From: an uncultured Prevotellaceae bacterium
Lineage (GTDB): Bacteria; Bacteroidota; Bacteroidia; Bacteroidales; Muribaculaceae
Length of the DNA: 43,541 nucleotides
Direction: 5' to 3'
NCBI GenBank assembly: GCA_900317835.1
Contig: ONIL01000028.1
Coordinates: 1 to 43,541 of the forward strand
Position 1 is the stretch's first letter. The number at the start of each line of letters is the position of its first letter. Of this stretch, positions 21,483-31,501 are shown piece by piece. Below the pieces are notes generated by a model, which saw only the letters and a list, made by a program, of their open reading frames with translations, made no database searches and was not told the origin of the DNA. The position numbers were made by a program, and so were the translations under genes.

Positions 21483-22355
21483 TTATTGAGGAAATTCCAG
21501 CAGGAATGTGGTGGTGAATCCCGAGTGGGGTTCATCGAGCAGCGACATCATGCCGCCCTGAATGGTGAGCAGACGCCGACTCAACGACAAGCCAATGCCA
21601 TTGCCCGAGCGCTTGGTTGTAAAGAAAGGAATGAATATCGAGGAACGCACATCGGCAGGAATCAATTCACCATCGTTGCTCACATACAGACACACTCTAC
21701 CCCCGAGACTGTTTTTACATTCCATGCCCAGTTTGTGGCTGCCTGCTTCAATAGCATTCTTGATAAGGTTAATGAGAATCTGCCGCAACAGGTTCGGGTC
21801 AGTCTTGACGATAATAGGCCCCTCAATGTGGCAATGCCATTCAAGCTGGGCATATAACTGCTGCACCTCGATAATGACGGCCCCAAGGTCAACCAACTGG
21901 GGCACAGGTTTCTGCAGCTCAGAATACTTACGGTACCCGTCAACAAACGAGTTGAGGTGAGTCACCGTGCTGTGGATAGCCTGGATGCCCTCCTCCATCT
22001 CGCTCCCCTTGACAGCGGGATTGTGAAGCATCGACTGGCTGATGCTGGCAATGGGAGCCGTGGCATTCATGATCTCGTGAGTGAGTACGCGCGTGAGTTT
22101 CTCCCATGACTCCACCTCTCCCATGTTAACCTGCTCACGGATGTGTTCACCCAGCTGGTTCAATGTCTCCTGCAATGCCCGTTCTCCTTTAAAAAGGCGG
22201 CGCGTGGGCAGCCTGAAGGTCAGGTCGCGATTGCGAATGGCTTCCTGCATCAAGCGGGCACGCTTCACAAGCTGGCGCTGATGGTAGCAAAACCATAAAG
22301 CCACAGCCACCAGCAACAGGACAAGGGCAATCAGCAATTTGAGTTCGAGACTCAT
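21483..22355 (-). CDS. Membrane sensor histidine kinase
   Basis: The 290-residue kinase has one N-terminal membrane helix (about residues 4-24) and almost no periplasmic part, so it may sense a signal in or inside the membrane. A short HAMP-like linker follows. The phosphoacceptor His93 lies in LTHEIMNATAPI. The ATP-binding domain has NLIKNAIEAG (N box), SNDGELI, FIPFFTTK (F box) and GNGIGLSLS (G2 box). Its start overlaps the end of the response regulator gene by 4 bp (ATGA), so the pair is translationally coupled, with the regulator first. It presumably phosphorylates Asp55 of that regulator. The neighbourhood suggests the ABC exporter at 26081 is a target. Confidence 0.9.
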   Translation of the reverse strand: MSLELKLLIALVLLLVAVALWFCYHQRQLVKRARLMQEAIRNRDLTFRLPTRRLFKGERALQETLNQLGEHIREQVNMGEVESWEKLTRVLTHEIMNATAPIASISQSMLHNPAVKGSEMEEGIQAIHSTVTHLNSFVDGYRKYSELQKPVPQLVDLGAVIIEVQQLYAQLEWHCHIEGPIIVKTDPNLLRQILINLIKNAIEAGSHKLGMECKNSLGGRVCLYVSNDGELIPADVRSSIFIPFFTTKRSGNGIGLSLSRRLLTIQGGMMSLLDEPHSGFTTTFLLEFPQ

Positions 22356-22879
22356 TGCAGCCTTTTTATTTTATTATATAACGTCTGTCGGGTAATCCCA
22401 AGGAGTTCCGCAGCCTTTGTCAGGTTGCCGTTACAACGGTCAAGGGCACGCTGGATGTGCTCCGATTCCACCTCGTCAAGCGTGGCCACATTCTTCTTTG
22501 CATCAAGCACATCCTTGAGCTTGCGCACCAAATCATCATTATCCCAAGGCTTGGTGACGAAGTCAGCAGCACCGCGTTTGAGGCCTCGCACAGCCAGCTG
22601 CACGTCAGCATAAGCGGTAATCAGCACCACAGGAATCTCAGGGTGATGCTTGTGAATGGCTTGCAGCCAAAACAATCCATCCTGTCCACTATTCACACCC
22701 AGGGTGAAGTTCATGTCAAGAAGTATGATATCCACATGCTCCTGTCCCAATAGCGCAATCAGCCTATCAGGATTGGTCAAGGTCATCACTTTCTCAAATG
22801 TCCCCACCAGGCAGTACTTCAGTGCGGTGAGCACTGCCTCATTGTCATCAACGACCAATATAGTACCGTAATCATTCAT
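22352..22879 (-). CDS. Response regulator, receiver + Fis-type HTH (RegA/PrrA-like)
   Basis: The 175-residue protein has a receiver domain (about residues 5-120) with the acidic pair D11-D12, phosphoacceptor Asp55 in IILLDMNF, Thr88 and Lys110 in VTKPW. The C-terminal Fis/NtrC-type helix-turn-helix (about 135-175) is IQRALDRCNGNLTKAAELLG then ITRQTLYNKI. The AAA+ sigma-54 domain of NtrC is missing, so the layout is that of RegA/PrrA/ActR regulators, which activate ordinary sigma-factor promoters by binding DNA dyads. Two identical 17-bp TGT-N11-ACA dyads lie about 90-130 bp upstream of this gene, and a related pair precedes the ABC exporter. I infer these are its sites. Confidence 0.9.
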   Translation of the reverse strand: MNDYGTILVVDDNEAVLTALKYCLVGTFEKVMTLTNPDRLIALLGQEHVDIILLDMNFTLGVNSGQDGLFWLQAIHKHHPEIPVVLITAYADVQLAVRGLKRGAADFVTKPWDNDDLVRKLKDVLDAKKNVATLDEVESEHIQRALDRCNGNLTKAAELLGITRQTLYNKIKRLQ

Positions 22880-22967
22880 ATCGGCAGCGAATTTACAAAA
22901 GAACTCGGATTCTTCACACAGTTATCACACATTTTTTTATCTAAAACATACGCCTCGGGCACAAAAG

Positions 22968-23007
22968 TGTAAAAAAATTAGACACTTTATTGTAAAAAAA
23001 TTAGACA
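22968..23007 (+). promoter_or_regulatory. Tandem 17-bp dyads, probable response-regulator operator
   Basis: The 17-mer TGTAAAAAAATTAGACA occurs twice without mismatch, at 22968-22984 and 22991-23007, 23 bp apart. Each copy has the shape TGT-N11-ACA, and flanking bases extend the symmetry to AAAGTGT/ACACTTT and TATTGT/ACAATA. This resembles the TGT/ACA dyads bound by Fis-type NtrC/NifA-family domains. The pair ends 26 bp upstream of the -33 element of the promoter at 23034. The remainder of 22880-23033 shows no gene. Confidence 0.7.
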
Positions 23008-23033
23008 ATAGCACGATTTGGAGATCGATTCCC

Positions 23034-23065
23034 TTGACACGACCCGAGTCGCGTGATTAATTTTG
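23034..23065 (+). promoter_or_regulatory. Plus-strand promoter of a stand-alone transcription unit
   Basis: CTTGAC (TTG at 23034-23036) and TAATTTTG (23058-23065) are 21 bp apart. The -7 box is followed by CATCAC, nearly the same as TATCAC after the ABC exporter promoter at 26014-26021. No plus-strand annotated gene follows for 3 kb, so it must drive a short RNA or small ORF. Confidence 0.7.
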
Positions 23066-23204
23066 CATCACAGGAACGAAAACCGTTTCTACTGATAAAT
23101 ATCTACTGACTGAACAACAACCAAGAATATGAACAACCAAGCATACAGACATAGTATCATATTATTAAGAGTTTTGAAGTGCTAGAATTTTTTCATAAAT
23201 CTAG

Positions 23205-23336
23205 ATGTGTCACGTTGAATACGGCACACATCCACAAATCGCAGCCTTGCTACTAACACACAAGCCGAATGAGCTGAGCCAGGAACCTATTCTGGGTGAT
23301 CAATCTAAACAAGAATATTTCTTCTCAATAAAATAA
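23205..23336 (+). CDS. Possible 43-residue small protein
   Basis: An ATG at 23205 opens a 43-codon frame ending TAA at 23334-23336. The product begins MCHVEYGTHPQIAALLL and ends QEYFFSIK, with no signal peptide or membrane helix. It lies inside the candidate transcript 23072-23491, and the left arm of the long inverted repeat falls within its codons. A frame of this length can arise by chance in AT-rich DNA. I do not recognise the product. Confidence 0.3.
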   Translation: MCHVEYGTHPQIAALLLTHKPNELSQEPILGDQSKQEYFFSIK

Positions 23337-23364
23337 ACGTAAGTTCAGGTTCCTGGCAATGCTC
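23271..23364 (+). repeat. Long inverted repeat inside the 23.1-23.5 kb transcript
   Basis: GCCAGGAACCT (23278-23288) and AGGTTCCTGGC (23347-23357) are perfect complements. Four more pairs (GAGC 23271-23274 with GCTC 23361-23364) follow after a 3-nt internal loop. The 58-nt loop contains the end of the 43-codon ORF. This is too large a loop for a terminator and suggests RNA structure. Confidence 0.75.
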
Positions 23365-23457
23365 TTCAAAAAAATGACTATCACATTCACACCATAAAAA
23401 CATAGGAGAGTAAAACTATTGAATTCCAGTCAACAATCTTTAAAACGCTGGTTTAAG

Positions 23458-23491
23458 AAGAGGGCAACGGCCGACGTTCCCCTCTTTTTTT
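23458..23491 (+). terminator. Rho-independent terminator of the 23.1-23.5 kb unit
   Basis: AAGAGGG (23458-23464) pairs with CCCTCTT (23480-23486). After a C/C mismatch AACG pairs with CGTT around a 5-nt loop, and a run of seven T ends the structure. Its orientation is plus, so it ends a plus-strand transcript. Confidence 0.85.
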
Positions 23492-23518
23492 GTGTCACAC
23501 CTTCTCCTATAACGACAA

Positions 23519-23548
23519 TCTCCATCCCGGCAGTTGCCGAGATGGAGA
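23519..23548 (-). terminator. Hairpin after the dockerin protein gene
   Basis: A 14-bp stem with one wobble pair (23519-23532 with 23535-23548) lies 28 bp after the stop codon of the minus-strand gene at 23577. The T tract is poor (ATTGTCGTT), so termination is inferred from stem and position. Confidence 0.55.
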
Positions 23549-23576
23549 CTTATTATCAGATGCTGAGGCTTGTCGT

Positions 23577-25571
23577 TTAATGAGCTGCAGGCCAATATCC
23601 GCCCAGCACATAGTCAATCAGAGCTGAGACATCAGCGATGTTAACATCATTATCGAGGTTGCAGTCAGCGTTGTCAAAGTTCAGACCAGTCCAGTCATCG
23701 CTCAAGATGGCATCGATCAGTGCCGAAACGTCAGCGATGTTGATGTCACCGTTGTTGTTCACGTCACCTCGCTGGCTATTACCTGTTCCAATTGCAGGAA
23801 CGACAAATTGAGCCATGAAAGGCTTACTCTCGTTCTTGCCTATATTGGAGCCGTCGGCAATAGCTGCCAGATAGATTGTCTGGTCAACATCGGTGCGCAT
23901 CACCACATAGGGGTTGTCAACGCAATCGACAATAGAGAAGCTTTCACCATCGGGTTCGACAGTCATCAGGTTAACCACAACGCCCTCCTCGGTTGTGACA
24001 CCCGTGAACGTATATGAATCATCACCTTCAGTCACCTCAATTGCTGGCACTTCGGCATGACCCAGCAGGAAACCCGCACCGTTGGTGAAATACAACGTGT
24101 TATTTATATAACGACAAAAAGAGCTTGTCTGTTGCCCCCTATAGGGTACTGTTTTTTGCCATGAGATGACCTGGTTAGTCACAGCACCCTCATTACCAAA
24201 TGTGAGCGAGTCATTAGAGATGTCGCAATTATAGAAGAAAGAAGCATTCTCACCATTGAAACCGATCACTTGAAAGGGGAATTCCATTGTGCCATCCTCA
24301 TGCAAAACCAAGTAATTACCACCAAATCCTGATCCGAATAGATTAAGCACAATCAAGTCGCTATCATTGAGTTGGTACATATATACAGGTTCAGCATAAT
24401 TCTGTTCCAGAGAAGGGATATCAGTGCGGGCAGAAACGTTGGACGTTGTGGAATTCAAGGCTGTGAGGTCCAAGGAAGGAAACGTGCCCCCTTTGGGACG
24501 ACCGGGATTCTTGGGGTCGAATGGTTTATGCACATACCCTCCCACACCATCAGTAACACATTGTCCAGGATTAATGAAATCAATAAGTCCAACATCATCC
24601 TTCACATTGAGCGAAGGTTGCTTGACCTCATCTCTGCTACTCATTTTGATTCCAGACCTTGGCGGACGACGTGGATCAATGGGTCTAGGCACTGAACCAC
24701 CAACACCTAATGTTGTGCTAATGAAACCATTACCCGTATTTGAAACAATCAAGGGGTTGACCCAATCTATCAAATTTATTGAATCACCAAGATTAATTTG
24801 AAATGCTTGGTAGAGACTATTAAACTCATGCGTTCCATTCGGTTTCAGGAGCAACATGTTGCGGAAAAGTGGCGATAGGGAGACCTCGGTAGCCACACTT
24901 ATCACTCGCCCATTCCTGCTCTTGAAAATACTATCCTCGACAAAGACGGCAAAGCCATCCTGTATCTCAATGGATCCATCCTGAGAGATGTGCCCCTCGA
25001 TATTAGGCAATTCATCATAGTCATCAAACACAAAATCCTCAGGAATAATTGTAACATATCTCACTGTATCGTAGGTATAACGGCCACTGGTAGAGCTTCC
25101 TGCAAGAAAACCAGGATATTCACCACATAGAATCCACACTATGTTATTGGCTTCATCAATCTCTGCGTAAATGTCAAATCCCGAATAGAAATCATTGATT
25201 ACTACGAATCCCGGGAGATCCTCCTCAAACGCCACTTTCCAACCCATCATGTTTGCGGTATCACTCGGTGAGTAGGATTCATCTCCTTGCCAATCAAAAG
25301 CCTCGACCATGACAATTCTCTCACCCTGAAAATCCTCAGTCGAAAGACGACGTGGGGCCTTCTTGGTCAAGCGGTTGTCATCGAGTGTGAGATTGCGCTC
25401 TCGCATGACTTGCTGCAAAGAAACAGACGCACCAGCGCCTGCTGACGGCTTAGCATTTTGGGTTCTCGACACTAACGCCTTCTTTAACTGATTGCGGCTA
25501 ATAGGCGGATCATCTGCCATTGCCGATAGGGCAAAAATGGCACACAGAATCAAAAATAGAGACTTTCTCAT
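23577..25571 (-). CDS. Large secreted protein with C-terminal dockerin repeats
   Basis: The 664-residue protein has a signal peptide (about residues 1-19). A short disordered region, AKPSAGAGASVSLQ, follows, then a long beta-rich central part I do not recognise. It ends in a dockerin-like pair at about 603-655 (GDVNNNGDINIADVSALI and CNLDNDVNIADVSALI). Two similar blocks occur at about 310 and 370 (VGGSVPRPIDPRRPPRSG and VGGYVHKPFDPKNPGRPKGG), a likely internal duplication. It is exported and probably cell-surface or secreted. The gene is divergent from the ABC exporter, with tandem regulator-like dyads in the gap, and lies opposite the candidate RNA. It could be cargo or a co-regulated surface protein; that is inference. 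Confidence 0.75.
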   Translation of the reverse strand: MRKSLFLILCAIFALSAMADDPPISRNQLKKALVSRTQNAKPSAGAGASVSLQQVMRERNLTLDDNRLTKKAPRRLSTEDFQGERIVMVEAFDWQGDESYSPSDTANMMGWKVAFEEDLPGFVVINDFYSGFDIYAEIDEANNIVWILCGEYPGFLAGSSTSGRYTYDTVRYVTIIPEDFVFDDYDELPNIEGHISQDGSIEIQDGFAVFVEDSIFKSRNGRVISVATEVSLSPLFRNMLLLKPNGTHEFNSLYQAFQINLGDSINLIDWVNPLIVSNTGNGFISTTLGVGGSVPRPIDPRRPPRSGIKMSSRDEVKQPSLNVKDDVGLIDFINPGQCVTDGVGGYVHKPFDPKNPGRPKGGTFPSLDLTALNSTTSNVSARTDIPSLEQNYAEPVYMYQLNDSDLIVLNLFGSGFGGNYLVLHEDGTMEFPFQVIGFNGENASFFYNCDISNDSLTFGNEGAVTNQVISWQKTVPYRGQQTSSFCRYINNTLYFTNGAGFLLGHAEVPAIEVTEGDDSYTFTGVTTEEGVVVNLMTVEPDGESFSIVDCVDNPYVVMRTDVDQTIYLAAIADGSNIGKNESKPFMAQFVVPAIGTGNSQRGDVNNNGDINIADVSALIDAILSDDWTGLNFDNADCNLDNDVNIADVSALIDYVLGGYWPAAH

Positions 25572-25725
25572 AATTAGAAATATTTAGTTTATAGTTATTT
25601 AACGATCATCCAATCGGATATTCACATGATAGTTTCCATTTCTTGGGCTTCAGGAACATCAGTCTTTATCACAAAATGCGGACACTGACCAGTTCATATC
25701 CTATATGATACCTAATTCTTGCGCA

Positions 25726-25733
25726 CAAATTTA
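25726..25733 (-). promoter_or_regulatory. -7 box candidate for the dockerin protein gene
   Basis: TAAATTTG on the minus strand fits TAnnTTTG and lies about 155 bp before the start at 25571. No TTTG is present at the -33 distance. The remainder of 25572-25924 is AT-rich and shows no gene. Confidence 0.35.
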
Positions 25734-25924
25734 GATTATTTTCTCATTTATTATTCATACATGCTGCCCAATTAACAATGATTTAACATATTTTTAATTA
25801 GTTCTGGTGGCAACTAGGTGTTTACCCATATCACAAACCATTTCTTCTCTCGACTTCCAATCTTCCAAATTCATCATACCGTGCCTTGAGATGCTGCTTA
25901 ACAAATTAACTGAATCGTGAAAAA

Positions 25925-25963
25925 CGTCAAAAAAATAGACAGTTTTGTGCAAAAAATACGGCA
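25925..25963 (+). promoter_or_regulatory. Tandem A-rich dyads upstream of the ABC exporter
   Basis: CGTCAAAAAAATAGACA (25925-25941) matches the 17-mer at 22968 at 14 of 17 positions and contains the dyad GTC/GAC. A second, weaker copy (25947-25963, GTGCAAAAAATACGGCA, dyad TGC/GCA) follows 22 bp later. It ends 26 bp before the -33 element, exactly the distance seen at the 23.0-kb promoter. Probable response-regulator sites. Confidence 0.6.
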
Positions 25964-25989
25964 TTTGTCATTTTTAGGGGTAAAAACTC

Positions 25990-26021
25990 TTGACCAGTCA
26001 CATGAAAAACCCCTAAATTTG
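25990..26021 (+). promoter_or_regulatory. Promoter of the ABC exporter operon
   Basis: CTTGAC (TTG at 25990-25992) and TAAATTTG (26014-26021) are 21 bp apart, followed by TATCAC. Spacing and sequence match the promoter at 23034-23065. The leader to the ATG at 26081 is about 55 nt. Confidence 0.75.
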
Positions 26022-26080: not shown

Positions 26081-28537
26081 ATGCAAGAGCATCTGAGAAA
26101 TATCATCTACATGGCAAGACGTTTCAAGCTGGCAACATTTTTCAACATGCTGGGCTTGGTATTAGGCTTTGCCTGCTTCTACCTGTTCATGACGCAGATT
26201 GTCTATCAGGCCACCTATAACCATGACATCACCGATTATAAGCGACTCTACCGCATGGAGAGCAACTTTGTGTTCAATGAGTGGCAATATACCGACAATG
26301 TCCCACGCCCATTCGCTATGGCGCTGGAAAGGATGCCACAGGTTGAATCCTACTCCTTGACATTAAACACAAGTACCGGCGGCTTTGAAGAAGCCTACAT
26401 TTTCCCTTTCAAGAAAGGAGACCGCGAGTTTCGTTATACCCTCTCAGAGGGCAACAACAAGGCTGTGAGCACGCTCACCGACAAGAGATTAAGCGGTGAA
26501 ATCGAATGGACCGACACAGCCCAAGACGGGTACATCATTCCAGCCAGCATCGCCATGGAGTACTTTGGTACTACCAATGTTAAAGACAGCATGGAACTGA
26601 TTTATGATGATGGTGAGACAACCGAAATCTATAAGTTCCCTGTCCGCGGTGTATATGAGGATTTCCCTGAAAACAGCGAACTGGTCAACTGCATTTATCG
26701 CAATATGCAAGGAGCGGATTCATTGAGTCTGAATTCCACCTACCATTGTATCGTGAAGTTCAAGCATCTGCCCGATGACATGGAAGCCTTTGGTGATTCG
26801 CTCAAGTCCAAAATCATCGACCAGTTGACCAAGGGATACCTGCACACTGAATACGAGGACGAGATCCCAACAGTTATACAATCAGTTAACGAAACGACAA
26901 TCAAGTTCACCCCCATCAAGGACAGTTTCTTTGAACATTCGACTTTCACCACCGGCCCGAGTGGCTTCAAGAGCATCTTCTCGACCATGCAGTTGTCTTG
27001 CCTGCTGATCATCATTATTGTCACCATCAATTTCCTGAACTTCATGATGGTCGAGAGCCCGATGCGCATTCGCAGCATCAACACCCGCCTTGTCTTGGGT
27101 GCCTCACGACGCTCACTCAGGATGGGCATGGTGATGGAATGTGTCATCACATCCCTCATCGCCTGCGCTTTGGCCCTTGTCATTTGTTATCTGGTGCAAT
27201 ATTTGCCTCCAGTACGCAATCTCATTGTGGGCTCTGCCGCGTTGACCGACCATTGGCTGACGGTACTGTTCATGATCGTTATTGCTGTGATTGTTGGCAT
27301 CACGGGGGGCTACTATCCAGCCACTTACGCCACATCCCATGCACCTGCAATGGCCTTGAAGAGCAACTTCGGTCTTTCCCCCGAAGGTAAAAAGCTGCGC
27401 ACCGTGCTCTTGTGCCTACAGATGATACTAGCCATGTTCCTGATTATCTACAGCGGCATCATGTGCTCTCAGGTCTGGTATATCCTCAAATCACACTACG
27501 GCTACGATAGGGACCAGCTGCTCGTGGTCAACCTGCCCTATTCACCCAATGGGAACCTTCACACAGACATCTACAATGAATTGATGCAGATGCGTGGCGT
27601 GGAAGCGGCCTCCTTCTCCAGCATTCTGCTGGGTTCAACCGATGGCCACTACGCCCTGAGGACCGAAAAGGACGGCAAAACAGTCAGGTATTGTTACATG
27701 ACTGTGGATGAAAACTACATGACTACCATGGGAATCAAGGTCATCAAGGGCCGCCCCATATCGCCTTCCGACACCATGGCCGTCATCGTCAATGAGGCAG
27801 CAACCAAGGAATGGAAATGGTTGAAGTTAGGAACCAGGATTTCGACAGGTATTGATAGTGAGAGAAGCGACAGCGCGACGGTGGTCGGTGTGTGTGAAAA
27901 CATCCGATACGGAACAACCCGCATTGTCAATGACAAACCTTTCTTTTTCATCTATGACCCGGATTCATACAACAATTGCCTCAATATCCGCATAGCCCCC
28001 GACGCTGATAAGAAAGAGATATCACGGCAAATCAGCGAGATGGTTCAAAAACACATCAAGGAGAAAAACTCCGGTCAAAACATCTCTAGGCCCGTCAACA
28101 TCAATTACTTCAACACGAGATTACAAGATATTTACAAAGAAGAGTTCCGATATTTCAAGCAGATGCTCTTTATCTCCATCTTCTGCTTGATTATCACGCT
28201 GATTGGAGTATTCTGCCTCACGCTGTTCGAGATCGAGTACCGACGCAAGGAAATCGGCATCCGCAAGGTTGCCGGAGCCACAACCGGCGAAATTGTCATG
28301 ATGCTATGCCGCATCTATGGCTGGCTCATTATCATCAGCTTCGCCGTTGCGGCACCCATCGCGTTCTTCATCGGCACTAATACGCTGGCATACTTCAACG
28401 AGCGAACCCCAATTCACTGGTGGTGGGGTTCCCTTTTGGCACTGTTGATAGTGGGTGGATTGACACTAGGGACAGTGATACCGCAGAGCTGGCGCATCGC
28501 ACGGGAAAACCCTGTCAACAGCATCAAGAGCGATTAA
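26081..28537 (+). CDS. MacB/FtsX-type ABC transporter permease
   Basis: The 818-residue inner-membrane protein has two MacB-like halves. Each has a membrane helix, a large periplasmic domain (about residues 45-295 and 470-690) and a three-helix FtsX core (about 300-415 and 695-805). Both cores end in the conserved FtsX wording, NTRLVLGASRRSL in the first and EIGIRKVAGATTGEI in the second. Such permeases use ATP hydrolysis in the cytosol to drive mechanical movement in the periplasm, for example to push peptides or lipoproteins outward. No membrane-fusion or TolC-like gene is adjacent. It is followed after 34 bp by the ATPase gene and has the putative regulator-controlled promoter at 25990. 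The substrate is unknown. Confidence 0.9.
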   Translation: MQEHLRNIIYMARRFKLATFFNMLGLVLGFACFYLFMTQIVYQATYNHDITDYKRLYRMESNFVFNEWQYTDNVPRPFAMALERMPQVESYSLTLNTSTGGFEEAYIFPFKKGDREFRYTLSEGNNKAVSTLTDKRLSGEIEWTDTAQDGYIIPASIAMEYFGTTNVKDSMELIYDDGETTEIYKFPVRGVYEDFPENSELVNCIYRNMQGADSLSLNSTYHCIVKFKHLPDDMEAFGDSLKSKIIDQLTKGYLHTEYEDEIPTVIQSVNETTIKFTPIKDSFFEHSTFTTGPSGFKSIFSTMQLSCLLIIIIVTINFLNFMMVESPMRIRSINTRLVLGASRRSLRMGMVMECVITSLIACALALVICYLVQYLPPVRNLIVGSAALTDHWLTVLFMIVIAVIVGITGGYYPATYATSHAPAMALKSNFGLSPEGKKLRTVLLCLQMILAMFLIIYSGIMCSQVWYILKSHYGYDRDQLLVVNLPYSPNGNLHTDIYNELMQMRGVEAASFSSILLGSTDGHYALRTEKDGKTVRYCYMTVDENYMTTMGIKVIKGRPISPSDTMAVIVNEAATKEWKWLKLGTRISTGIDSERSDSATVVGVCENIRYGTTRIVNDKPFFFIYDPDSYNNCLNIRIAPDADKKEISRQISEMVQKHIKEKNSGQNISRPVNINYFNTRLQDIYKEEFRYFKQMLFISIFCLIITLIGVFCLTLFEIEYRRKEIGIRKVAGATTGEIVMMLCRIYGWLIIISFAVAAPIAFFIGTNTLAYFNERTPIHWWWGSLLALLIVGGLTLGTVIPQSWRIARENPVNSIKSD

Positions 28538-28571: not shown

Positions 28572-29246
28572 ATGATACAAATAAGCAATTTAAAGAAAGT
28601 GTACAACTATGGTAATGTGTATACCGTAGCGCTGGGTGGCATTAACATGGAAGTAGAGGAAGGTGAGTTCATCGCCATCATGGGGCCATCGGGTTGCGGT
28701 AAGACCACGCTGCTCAACATTCTGGGATTGCTCGACAACCCCAGTGAGGGCAATTACTTGCTTGATGGCGAAGAAGTGTCTAGGCTCAAAGAAAGTCAAC
28801 GCACTGCACTGCGCAAGGACAAAATCGGATTTGTATTCCAGAGTTTCAACCTCATCGATGAACTCACAGTCGAGCAGAATGTGGAACTACCACTCAAGTA
28901 CATGGGCGTTCCCACTGATGAGCGCAAGAAGAGAGTCACCGATGTGCTGCGCCGCATGAACATTTCGCACCGAGCCAACCACTACCCCAACCAGCTTTCG
29001 GGTGGCCAGCAGCAGCGCACCGCTATTGCCCGCGCCGTCGTCTGCATTCCCCGCATGATCCTGGCCGATGAGCCCACAGGCAACCTGGATTCAAAGAACG
29101 GCAAGGAGGTCATGGAACTGCTCGCCGAACTCAACGACGAGGGAACAACCATCATCATGGTGACCCACTCCCAACGCGACGCCTCCTATGCCAACCGCGT
29201 CATCAACATGCTCGACGGCTTCCTCGTCGAGAAAACCATACTCTAG
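28572..29246 (+). CDS. ABC transporter ATP-binding protein (LolD/MacB type)
   Basis: The 224-residue ATPase has Walker [10 protein letters not shown] (about residues 38-46), a Q-loop in [13 protein letters not shown], the signature LSGGQQQR, Walker [14 protein letters not shown] and the switch histidine in MVTHSQRDA. It belongs to the MacB/LolD/FtsE group that pairs with FtsX-like permeases, here the product of the gene 34 bp upstream. It supplies the energy for that permease at the cytosolic face. The following region 29247-29624 has no gene but holds a hairpin, one copy of the putative attachment repeat, a terminator and the integrase promoter. Confidence 0.93.
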
Positions 29247-29624: not shown

Positions 29625-30977
29625 ATGGCAAGTACCAAATATGAACTTTCAAAGAAGGACCGTAATGGTACATCCGAACTTATTGTTCGGTTCTGTTACG
29701 ATCGCAAGCATTCATATCGCCTGCACACGAACATCTGGGTTCCCCAGACGGCTTGGAACCCCTCCAAGGGTAAACTGATCATCCCTCGTATCCACGGTAA
29801 AGAGCAGAAACGACTGTCTCAACTACAAGCCAAAGTGGATGACCTTTCCAACTTTCTCAAAACCGAATCCATCGAAGCTCCCCAATCGGCTGACAAGAAC
29901 TACTGGATAAAAAAGATTCGGTTCTTCAACAACGGTGTATTGGCTGAACCCGACTCAGCGACGGTCGAGAGTGATATCTATTCAGAATCGAGCGAGCGTA
30001 TCATTGATGCATTTAATGCATTTATCGAGGCTCGAATTAAGAACGATAAGACCAAAAGACACATGATTACCACAATGGGGATCGTTAGAAGATACATTCT
30101 GTATAGTAAGGGCTGTGAGTTACTCAAAGATTGGACCGGAGAAGATCTTGCCGATTTTCAGGAATTCCTTCGAATAGAACACACTTTTTTTGAAAATGGG
30201 ATATGCAAGAAGAAGTGGGCGTATATCTATAAGGGATTCTCGAAAATGCGTGTGCCTAAGAAACGTGGAGGCAACAGAATCCATTCCATAATGAAGATGC
30301 TTAGAATAATGTTCAACTGGTGTGTAAGAACTGGTCGTATCAAGAAAAGTCCATTCAGCACTTTTCACCTTGACTCTTGTGTCTTCGGCACTCCATTTTA
30401 CATGACTATTGATGAGCTAAACACGCTTTATCACTTTGATTTCTCGAATAGACCCAAACTGGCCATCCAGAGGGACATTTTTGTACTTCAAAGCAACCTC
30501 GGTATGCGAGTGGGTGACTTTTATAGCCTTACTTCAGCCAATATTATTAATGATGCTATTGAATACATTCCAGGTAAAACTCTTCACGATTCTGGCGATG
30601 TAGTACGTGTCCCACTAACTGAACGTGCAAAGGAAATCATCAACCGCTATCAGAGCGACAGCAACAAAAGCTTAGTGCCCTTCATCTGTGAGCAAAAATA
30701 CAACGATGCCATCAAAGTGATGCTTAAGTTAGCTGGCATTAACAGAATGATTACCACTTTGAATCCAACAACCAGAATTGAGGAGCGCCATCCAATTTGG
30801 GAAAAAGCCTCCTCTCATATGGCTAGACGTAATTTTATCGGCAACCTCTATGCTCAAGTACAGGATCCTGCACTCATCTCGTCCATGACAGGACATAGGC
30901 CTGGTAGTAGAGCATTCGAAAGGTACCGCGCCATTCATGATGACATCAAAAAACCCATCCTAAAAATATTCGACTAA
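29625..30977 (+). CDS. Tyrosine recombinase / integrase
   Basis: The 450-residue protein has an N-terminal arm-type DNA-binding region (about residues 1-60), a SAM-like core-binding domain (about 125-240) and a C-terminal catalytic domain. The catalytic residues are all visible: Arg295 in NLGMRVGDFY, His398 and Arg401 in SSHMARRNF, His424 in TGHRPGS and Tyr434 in FERYRAI. It belongs to the Bacteroidota mobile-element integrases and should integrate and excise the element between short identical sequences through a 3'-phosphotyrosine. It lies next to the left candidate attachment repeat and is followed by a strong terminator. Confidence 0.95.
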   Translation: MASTKYELSKKDRNGTSELIVRFCYDRKHSYRLHTNIWVPQTAWNPSKGKLIIPRIHGKEQKRLSQLQAKVDDLSNFLKTESIEAPQSADKNYWIKKIRFFNNGVLAEPDSATVESDIYSESSERIIDAFNAFIEARIKNDKTKRHMITTMGIVRRYILYSKGCELLKDWTGEDLADFQEFLRIEHTFFENGICKKKWAYIYKGFSKMRVPKKRGGNRIHSIMKMLRIMFNWCVRTGRIKKSPFSTFHLDSCVFGTPFYMTIDELNTLYHFDFSNRPKLAIQRDIFVLQSNLGMRVGDFYSLTSANIINDAIEYIPGKTLHDSGDVVRVPLTERAKEIINRYQSDSNKSLVPFICEQKYNDAIKVMLKLAGINRMITTLNPTTRIEERHPIWEKASSHMARRNFIGNLYAQVQDPALISSMTGHRPGSRAFERYRAIHDDIKKPILKIFD

Positions 30978-31002
30978 TACAGTTGCTCATCAATAGGTTA
31001 TG

Positions 31003-31055
31003 TTGGGGGAAATCACGCTATCAATAACGTGAATCTTCCCCCAATCTCATTTTTC
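31003..31055 (+). terminator. Terminator after the integrase gene
   Basis: TTGGGGGAA (31003-31011) pairs with TTCCCCCAA (31036-31044), with an inner TCACG/CGTGA stem, followed by TCTCATTTTT. It lies 25 bp after the integrase stop. Confidence 0.85.
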
Positions 31056-31068
31056 AAAATCATCGACC

Positions 31069-31176
31069 TTTGCAGCGGAATTTGGATCGATTTTTTAGTT
31101 CAACAGCCAGAACCCAAGTGAGGGAAAATGGACTATGACAAAGCTAAAAAGTTCCCCAATACAGTTTTTGCAGCGG
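31069..31176 (+). repeat. Direct repeat TTTGCAGCGG, two copies 98 bp apart
   Basis: TTTGCAGCGG occurs at 31069-31078 and 31167-31176, the second just before the -7 box of the helix-turn-helix gene. The copies may be operator or recombinase arm sites, or chance. The first sits in a near -7 box (GACCTTTG). Confidence 0.5.
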
Positions 31177-31179
31177 CTA

Positions 31180-31187
31180 TAATTTTG
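31180..31187 (+). promoter_or_regulatory. -7 box of the helix-turn-helix gene
   Basis: TAATTTTG ends 8 bp before the ATG at 31196, so the transcript would be nearly leaderless. The -33 region has no clear TTTG. Confidence 0.45.
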
Positions 31188-31195
31188 CACTCGAT

Positions 31196-31501
31196 ATGAG
31201 AAATGATCTCAACATAGCAGACGAGTTTGCCACCATGGTAGCAGCCAAGGTGGTCGAGATTTTAGAAGAGAAGGGCTTGGTATTGGCTGATAGTGCATCA
31301 TGCTCAGAAGATCAGCAGGCGCTGTCTCCCACCCTCTATTCTATCAATGAAGTGTGCGAGCGCGTGAGAATCTCTAAAGCCACGCTTAATCGACATCGCA
31401 AATGTGGTTATATCACACCGTCCTGCTATGTGGGGCGATCACCCCGCTTTTCAGAGGTCGACATTGATAAGTATTTGCGACTTTTCAATTCTGAAAAATA
31501 A
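31196..31501 (+). CDS. Small helix-turn-helix DNA-binding protein (excisionase-like)
   Basis: The 101-residue protein has an acidic helical N-terminal part (about residues 1-45). A winged helix-turn-helix of the MerR/excisionase (helix_turn_helix_17) type follows: YSINEVCERVRISKATLNRH then PRFSEVDIDKYL. Such proteins next to an integrase often act as recombination directionality factors or as local regulators. The terminator between it and the integrase gives it separate expression, and the TTTGCAGCGG repeats upstream are possible binding sites. Function as an excisionase is inference. Confidence 0.8.
   Translation: MRNDLNIADEFATMVAAKVVEILEEKGLVLADSASCSEDQQALSPTLYSINEVCERVRISKATLNRHRKCGYITPSCYVGRSPRFSEVDIDKYLRLFNSEK

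Follow-up and report, generated by a model that had tools for sequence, protein, structure and literature searches.

Results

A two-component locus with two promoters of one layout

The window, by which we mean the whole 43,541-nucleotide stretch analysed here, comes from an uncultured Prevotellaceae bacterium (GenBank assembly GCA_900317835.1, contig ONIL01000028.1) and is contig 54 of a 65-contig, 3.07-Mb draft genome. It encodes a response regulator (RR), its partner histidine kinase and an ABC exporter, and the subject of this study is a pair of plus-strand promoters, each with an upstream operator of tandem dyads, of which one diverges from the RR gene and the other precedes the exporter operon. 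The features concerned are as follows.

21483 to 22355, minus strand: partner histidine kinase, 290 amino acids
22352 to 22879, minus strand: RR, 175 amino acids, with a receiver domain and a Fis-type helix-turn-helix (HTH) and without AAA+; presumed binder of the operators
22968 to 22984, plus strand: operator site 1 of the RR-divergent promoter, 17-mer TGTAAAAAAATTAGACA
22991 to 23007, plus strand: operator site 2 of the RR-divergent promoter, the same 17-mer as site 1, 23 bp start to start
23034 to 23065, plus strand: RR-divergent −33/−7 promoter, TTG-N21-TAATTTTG
25925 to 25941, plus strand: operator site 1 of the ABC-operon promoter, a 14/17 match to TGTAAAAAAATTAGACA
about 25947 to 25964, plus strand: degenerate, very weak second site of the ABC-operon promoter
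25990 to 26021, plus strand: −33/−7 promoter of the ABC operon, TTG-N21-TAAATTTG, then TATCAC
26081 to 28537, plus strand: FtsX/MacB-type ABC exporter permease
28572 to 29246, plus strand: ABC exporter ATPase

At the RR-divergent promoter, site 2 ends at 23007, 26 bp before the TTG at 23034; a further 21 bp separate the TTG from TAATTTTG, and CATCAC comes next. This promoter is directed away from the RR and kinase genes (21483 to 22879, minus strand), and the second lies ahead of the FtsX/MacB-type permease and its ATPase. Both fit the sigmaABfr type, with TAnnTTTG at −7 and TTG at −33. A preliminary description of the window had proposed that the two promoters share one layout, and this was borne out: the coordinates, the 26-bp and 21-bp distances and the 14/17 match were all verified in the sequence, such that the ABC operon and a predicted stand-alone short transcript are each preceded by it. 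The weaker last site of the second pair was also confirmed, as in the register typical of the family (23-bp spacing, 25 bp to the TTG) the ABC-operon pair has 7 of 12 half-site letters. Within the window, four matches to the 17-mer (up to three mismatches) were observed against 0.12 expected, a number reached in none of 100 shuffles. The composite TTGAC-N19-TAAWTTTG, with up to one mismatch allowed, occurs only at these two promoters, exactly in both cases, against 0.14 expected.

Operator pairs throughout the genome and the genus

The preliminary description had further suggested a search of the genome and of related genomes for the pairs, and they recur in both. A whole-genome search for TGT-N11-ACA pairs with 23-bp spacing returned 12 rows at seven places, with none from a reversed control, so that the ‘local regulon’ first proposed was drawn too narrowly. 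The exact −33/−7 promoter is present on one strand at five of the seven places, and absent at C56 and C47. After the seven pairs come genes for a DUF805 protein, a subtilisin-like protease, a TonB-type outer-membrane protein (second in its run), an M16 peptidase and two BspA-type leucine-rich-repeat proteins with dockerin, as well as the short transcript. In relatives, the early downstream genes include an ABC-2/DrrA-type pair cluster in four genomes (G002, G024, G031 and G035; assigned by a family search of the L195 members), and FtsX permeases in two (G007 and G025), two kinds of ABC exporter. The M16-peptidase cluster has members from five genomes. The genes assigned to the regulon encode exporters, proteases and surface proteins, suggesting an envelope or antimicrobial-peptide response. 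As a separate observation, a 664-amino-acid dockerin-domain protein is encoded between the RR and the ABC operon (23577 to 25571), dockerin being recurrent among the regulon genes.

Within the genus, 13 of 37 genomes encode the RR at 79–100% identity. All 13 hold the symmetric pair pattern, with one to nine pairs each, compared to one of the 24 genomes without the RR (G019); the reversed control was found in one of the 37 (G029). In 24 genomes of other families, the pair pattern occurs in five and the control in one. Geometry was assessed for 57 of the 81 pairs in the 13 genus genomes, in stretches chosen for holding pairs. An exact TTG-N19..21-TAnnTTTG lies 24–27 bp past site 2 at 39 of the 57, always on one strand and never on both, and the gap from site 2 to the TTG is 25 bp in 27 cases, 26 bp in ten, and 24 bp and 27 bp in one each. 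Among the remaining 18 pairs, 13 have a promoter with one mismatch and five have none. Of 22,800 random anchors, 4 have an exact promoter at one of these two main distances, 25 or 26 bp. The ABC-permease promoters at L089, L213, L214 and L225 have a good upstream site and a poor second site (best layout 8–9 of 12 letters), and one at L227 has a good pair (10/12). For six other permease genes of the genus (L091, L092, L205, L218, L223 and L227), no exact promoter with a scored layout was found within 500 bp.

Matching loci hold two promoter classes

A one-genome-per-species collection was then the source of at least 555 RR relatives, from which the best 80 loci were kept. The RR is AAA-less at 45 of them, of which 37 belong to the window's wider group and eight to a second set, and an AAA+ form at the other 35; a Walker A motif is found at 35/35 AAA+ loci and in 0/45 AAA-less frames. 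The RR gene is followed by the kinase gene at all 80 loci. ABC-exporter homologs accompany 26 of the 37 AAA-less loci, all eight of the second AAA-less set and 19 of the 35 AAA+ loci, counts in which many loci are short, and they stand on the opposite strand at 25 AAA-less and 17 AAA+ loci. The AAA+ loop reads GAFTDA in place of GAFTGA in 30 of the 35 AAA+ forms (within L129–L168), GAFTGA in one and neither in four. Several of the GAFTDA forms adjoin good −24/−12 matches.

The two kinds of locus differ in operator spacing and in promoter. A TGT-N11-ACA pair (at least 9 of 12 letters) before an exact −33/−7 promoter was found at 25 of the 37 AAA-less loci of the window's group and at none of the 43 other loci. 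The spacing in these 25 is always 23 bp and the TTG always lies 25–27 bp on, though 22–24 and 24–27 bp were permitted. At the AAA-less locus of Xylanibacter brevis ATCC 19188 (L107), the best pair ahead of a promoter has 9 of 12 letters. At the 35 AAA+ loci, 21 of the 30 pairs found have 21-bp spacing; nine of these 21 are followed by a sigma54-type −24/−12 match, in eight cases at 54–55 bp.

We also took the best pair in the 500 bp upstream of each RR, disregarding class, for 36 AAA-less loci (L114 was too short) and 34 AAA+ loci (L149 was too short). For the AAA-less loci, 24 of the 36 best pairs are spaced at 23 bp, and of these 22 were classed as −33/−7, one as both (L089) and one as neither. 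For the AAA+ loci, 11 of the 34 are spaced at 21 bp, nine of them with a sigma54 match at 53–55 bp, and one further locus (L150) combines a 22-bp spacing with a sigma54 match at 55 bp. None of these 36 AAA-less and 34 AAA+ loci shows the spacing–promoter combination of the other class. Perfect pairs (12/12 letters) upstream of the RR are spaced at 23 bp in 19 of 19 AAA-less and at 21 bp in 8 of 8 AAA+ cases, near relatives included. The recognition helices are nearly alike (ISRQTLY/ITRQTLY), and the dyad letters are similar before either promoter class.

An order-wide scan of 393 genomes was made with exact composites of operator pair and promoter; since these strict patterns miss many carriers, the counts do not give the frequency of either state. 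The exact −33/−7 composite was found in four genomes, this one and three of another genus, and its controls in none. Each of those three encodes an AAA-less RR, in frames of 186–225 amino acids without Walker A and at 66–72% identity, and their RR loci are not near-copies of the named loci (nucleotide matches of at most 78%). A fourth genome of that genus, which lacks the composite, has its sole match at E ≤ 1e-20 in a 504-amino-acid frame, and G329 has a full-length RR form in addition to an AAA-less one. The exact sigma54 composite was found in six of the 393 genomes, with controls at zero and no overlap with the four −33/−7 genomes; it was not found in the window's genome. In these six the best RR matches lie in frames of 447–594 amino acids, with Walker A in five and GAFTDA in all six, and two weaker RR matches lie in frames of 286 and 361 amino acids. 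One genome shows a clustered version of the regulon, with six composite promoters in 24 kb beside an AAA-less RR (G247, contig C38, 25387–49066).

The neighbouring RR as probable binder of the dyads

The RR had been proposed as the binder of the dyads from its position next door, and we regard it as the likely binder, because it co-occurs with the pairs (13/13 genomes versus 1/24) and because an operator letter tracks a residue of its recognition helix within the genus. In the three genus genomes with ISRQ helices, 11 of 52 half-sites have C at position 5 and 4 have T, whereas of the 176 half-sites in the eight genomes with ITRQ or VTRQ helices 2 have C and 73 have T; two of the ISRQ genomes (G035 and G036) look closely related, so that this set may amount to two independent lineages.

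Alternatively, another DNA-binding protein might use the dyads, with the RR merely a linked neighbour. The genome does encode six weaker receiver-type matches besides the RR (seven in all), and binding by the RR is itself a prediction. Such a protein would, however, have to account for pairs whose presence and absence track the RR, for an AAA-less RR in each of three genomes picked by the promoter composite alone, for a half-site position 5 that follows the Ser or Thr of the RR helix, and for the pair upstream of the RR gene in many species. We consider this explanation improbable.

Proposed activation and change of promoter class

Operators, spacings, promoter classes, the presence or absence of AAA+, the co-occurrence and the operator–helix covariation of the genus can all be read from the sequences. 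The explanation that we think probable is that an AAA-less RR activates a −33/−7 regulon, and that an ancestral regulon has moved from sigma54 to the housekeeping sigma factor. The RR (22352 to 22879) would be phosphorylated by its partner kinase and would then bind as two dimers to the two TGT-N11-ACA dyads, 23 bp apart, the centres of the two sites being some 35 and 58 bp ahead of the TTG. From there it would activate RNA polymerase carrying the housekeeping Bacteroidota sigma factor at a −33/−7 promoter that starts 25–26 bp downstream. Its regulon would extend across the genome and take in exporters, secreted proteases, surface proteins and short RNAs, and the signal may come from the envelope or from an antimicrobial peptide.

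The sign of regulation is not given by sequence alone, and the RR could instead be a repressor or antirepressor of otherwise constitutive −33/−7 promoters. Against this, the two sites keep an almost constant distance from the −33 element, well upstream of it, where upstream activators are typically placed, and the AAA+ regulators beside −24/−12 promoters would be activators. Repression or antirepression is thus an unlikely reading.

With regard to origin, the RR that we propose as an activator would have descended from an NtrC-type sigma54 activator at the same RR–kinase locus, with the AAA+ ATPase lost in the window's branch. The regulon promoters would have shifted from sigma54 −24/−12 promoters (dyads 21 bp apart, TGG 53–55 bp on) to −33/−7 promoters, while the kind of operator was kept. 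On a midpoint-rooted tree built from the receiver and Fis segments of 66 RRs, the AAA+ label needs two changes, compared to 17.3 for shuffled labels. As AAA+ is a general feature of NtrC-type proteins, its loss is the simpler direction. A sigma54 DNA-binding domain is found in 36 of the 37 genus genomes and is missing only from G022, which is 62% complete; loss of sigma54 as the cause of the promoter change is ruled out by this retention, and the change of class was not forced by loss of the sigma factor. Held a little less firmly, though we still think it likely, is the fuller claim that an NtrC-type sigma54 activator became, through loss of AAA+, a direct activator of RNA polymerase with the housekeeping sigma factor, and that the whole regulon, short structured RNAs included, changed promoter class with the operator letters kept, the dyads going from 21 to 23 bp and rpoN retained.

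It could also be that AAA+ and AAA-less systems reached the same kind of dyad independently, with no switch of one ancestral regulon. The limited support of the tree leaves room for this, and TGT/ACA dyads may be common for Fis-type domains. Speaking for common descent are the RR–kinase order at 80 of 80 loci, the ABC genes in many loci of both kinds, the near-identical helix, and the similar dyad letters before both promoter classes. We judge independent origins to be slightly more doubtful than either alternative above.

Several observations weigh against a regulon-wide switch as we propose it. The proposed direction of change rests on the usual architecture of NtrC proteins; the tree has a midpoint root, requires two changes and gives the main AAA-less branch weak support. 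At the AAA+ loci, 12 of the 21 pairs with 21-bp spacing have no sigma54 match by our criterion and one has its match at 91 bp; sigma54-like matches at scattered distances follow five pairs in four AAA-less loci, and 95 of 4000 stretches of 130 nucleotides satisfy the criterion by chance. In the best-pair comparison, 12 of the 36 AAA-less loci have another best spacing. It is also not certain that the AAA+ forms contact sigma54, because 30 of the 35 have GAFTDA and one has GAFTGA; changes to the GAFTGA motif are described, in an excerpt of PMC3162934, as mostly reducing or abolishing activity. For the second AAA-less set (L126, L127, L128, L131, L133, L136, L142 and L143), neither promoter layout was found. 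Six of these eight RRs are nested among AAA+ forms in the tree, and the set is perhaps an independent loss with another solution.

Further such points concern the operators themselves. The window's own ABC-operon promoter is a weak example of the layout and not a full copy, and four of the 13 RR-carrying genus genomes (L039, L041, L042 and L043) have no pair directly upstream of the RR. A near match with 23-bp spacing and two mismatches stands beside a full-length RR in one of the genomes of other families (G043:C74:6592-6631), possibly an intermediate or a chance occurrence. The Ser/Thr helix rule is a trend within the window's group and not a general one. At the AAA+ loci, which are mostly ISRQ where listed, 31 of 82 half-sites have T at position 5 and 12 have C; outside the genus, CC at positions 4–5 occurs in 4 of 16 half-sites with Ser and 1 of 92 with Thr, but T is commonest at position 5 in both. 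The genus genomes with the RR possibly form a single clade, and there are close relatives among the named loci, so the counts are not independent. Binding, phosphorylation, activation as opposed to repression, the direction of change and the envelope or antimicrobial-peptide signal are steps that we infer. Finally, the single 17-mer is not specific on its own: at up to three mismatches it has 31 genome-wide matches, and the reversed pattern has 23. A chance resemblance among A-rich promoter regions, which this could favour, has a negligible probability in view of pair and composite controls near zero and the geometry control of 4 in 22,800.

Relation to known systems

A close parallel is with NtrC-type sigma54 regulators, the AAA+ forms of Parabacteroides, Tannerella, Alistipes and others, which share with the window RR the receiver, the Fis-type HTH, the tandem dyads and the RR–kinase locus, frequently with ABC exporter genes. 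The window RR differs in that AAA+, with its Walker A and GAFTGA-type loop, is absent from its 175 residues, in that its sites precede −33/−7 promoters and in a dyad spacing of 23 rather than 21 bp; NtrC-type targets would have −24/−12 promoters, and the 39 exact promoters among the 57 pairs are of the −33/−7 class. NtrC of Caulobacter and Rhodobacter capsulatus and a regulator of V. cholerae, there called VspR, are NtrC-family proteins without GAFTGA that act at sigma70 promoters, according to an excerpt of PMC10274813, and resemble our proposal in operating without sigma54. Only the AAA+ loop is missing from the Caulobacter and R. capsulatus proteins as described there, whereas the window RR lacks the domain entirely, and matching loci differ in their class of promoter.

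The preliminary description had called the RR RegA/PrrA-like, an identity that we do not find supported. ActR/PrrA/RegA redox regulators do consist of a receiver and a Fis-type HTH without AAA+, as does the window RR. It scores 67.5 bits against the ActR/PrrA/RegA model NCBIfam NF033791 (cut-off 250; match over residues 6–168), however, and at matching loci its kin belong to the NtrC-type AAA+ regulators, its closest longer kin among the matches listed being Bacteroidales AAA+ regulators. The nearest named relatives among those matches come from uncultured Bacteroidales, several of them labelled rumen or goat gut.

Control of ABC-type antimicrobial-peptide permeases (COG0577) by sigma54 has been predicted in Bacteroidia, in an excerpt of PMC12316311; these permeases are of the same exporter type and consistent with the state at the AAA+ loci, and the excerpt describes no AAA+ loss of a regulator or move to −33/−7 promoters. 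The sigmaABfr promoters of Bacteroides have TAnnTTTG at −7 and TTTG near −33 (PMC7366714, in excerpt), and the window promoters differ from such promoters as described there in their fixed upstream tandem operator. In the titles and opening lines of abstracts of the papers listed by searches of an open-access library, we found no description of the AAA-less regulator or of the promoter change.

Sigma54 activators and ordinary ones differ in their physical mechanism, and a regulon in passage from one type to the other is difficult to catch. In the present case a single order would have both states, at matching loci whose operators are very similar, so that the change could be dissected base by base; if our reading is true, these loci amount to a natural experiment on the change of a regulon's sigma factor. 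To our knowledge, few activator geometries have been worked out in Bacteroidota, and the layout would offer a sequence rule for finding activator-dependent promoters there. From it one would also predict that gut and rumen bacteria mount a response of exporters, proteases and surface proteins.

The short transcript and its modules

The RR-divergent promoter is followed, up to 23577, by no open reading frame (ORF) of 80 or more codons, and the following features are predicted there.

23066 to 23492, plus strand: predicted stand-alone short transcript, with a hairpin and T run at its end (about 23457 to 23492)
23129 to 23185, plus strand: putative coding 18-codon ORF ending RVLKC inside the predicted transcript, with AATTTTTTCATAA directly 3′
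23266 to 23370, plus strand: module B, a stretch with the hairpin GCCAGGA...TCCTGGCA, common to six other short RR-type transcripts

The fold z-score of 23067–23492 is −4.07, and an Rfam search of 22880–23600 gave no match up to E = 1. The 7-bp core of the module B hairpin, GCCAGGA/TCCTGGC, is invariant and its loop varies; the hairpin is found in seven transcripts 3′ of an RR-type promoter (that of the window and those at L206, L036, L038, L087, L221 and L249), entering a T run in L087 and L249. A further match to the GCCAGGA...TCCTGGCA pattern, at L170, was excluded from the set, being away from any RR-type promoter and coding-like by eye. RNAalifold places 14 pairs in the hairpin, three of them with both sides changed; as the covariation term is only −0.16, the case for the hairpin is carried by conservation rather than covariation. 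It is possible that module B represents a small-RNA family of the regulon.

A second module, TGCT-N2..5-AATTTTTT(T)CATAA, occurs at 23180–23198 in the window and at L032, L036, L038, L087, L206 and L249. It often precedes a terminator-like hairpin and is predicted to be able to pair with ATGAAAAAA start regions. Some matches come after RR-type promoters. This element was considered as a possible small-RNA seed; several matches read, by eye, as MKK... gene starts on the other strand, and a census of the element says little for that reason.

The content of the short transcript varies among species, with the two modules present in several. A single conserved gene was considered and discarded, as its place is taken by a 189-amino-acid ORF in G007, a 510-amino-acid ORF in G002 and, by eye, a TolC-like start at L093; the four genus genomes without such a promoter beside the RR also count against it.

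Other features of the window

The window exporter scored below the NCBIfam cut-offs for the Darobactin exporter proteins DarB and DarD (94.9 and 296.8 bits, against 700 and 375). Directly past the ABC operon, a phage-type integrase and then an HTH_17 protein are encoded (29625 to 31501), likely a mobile element. The start of a 16S rRNA gene lies on the minus strand at the contig end (1 to 88).

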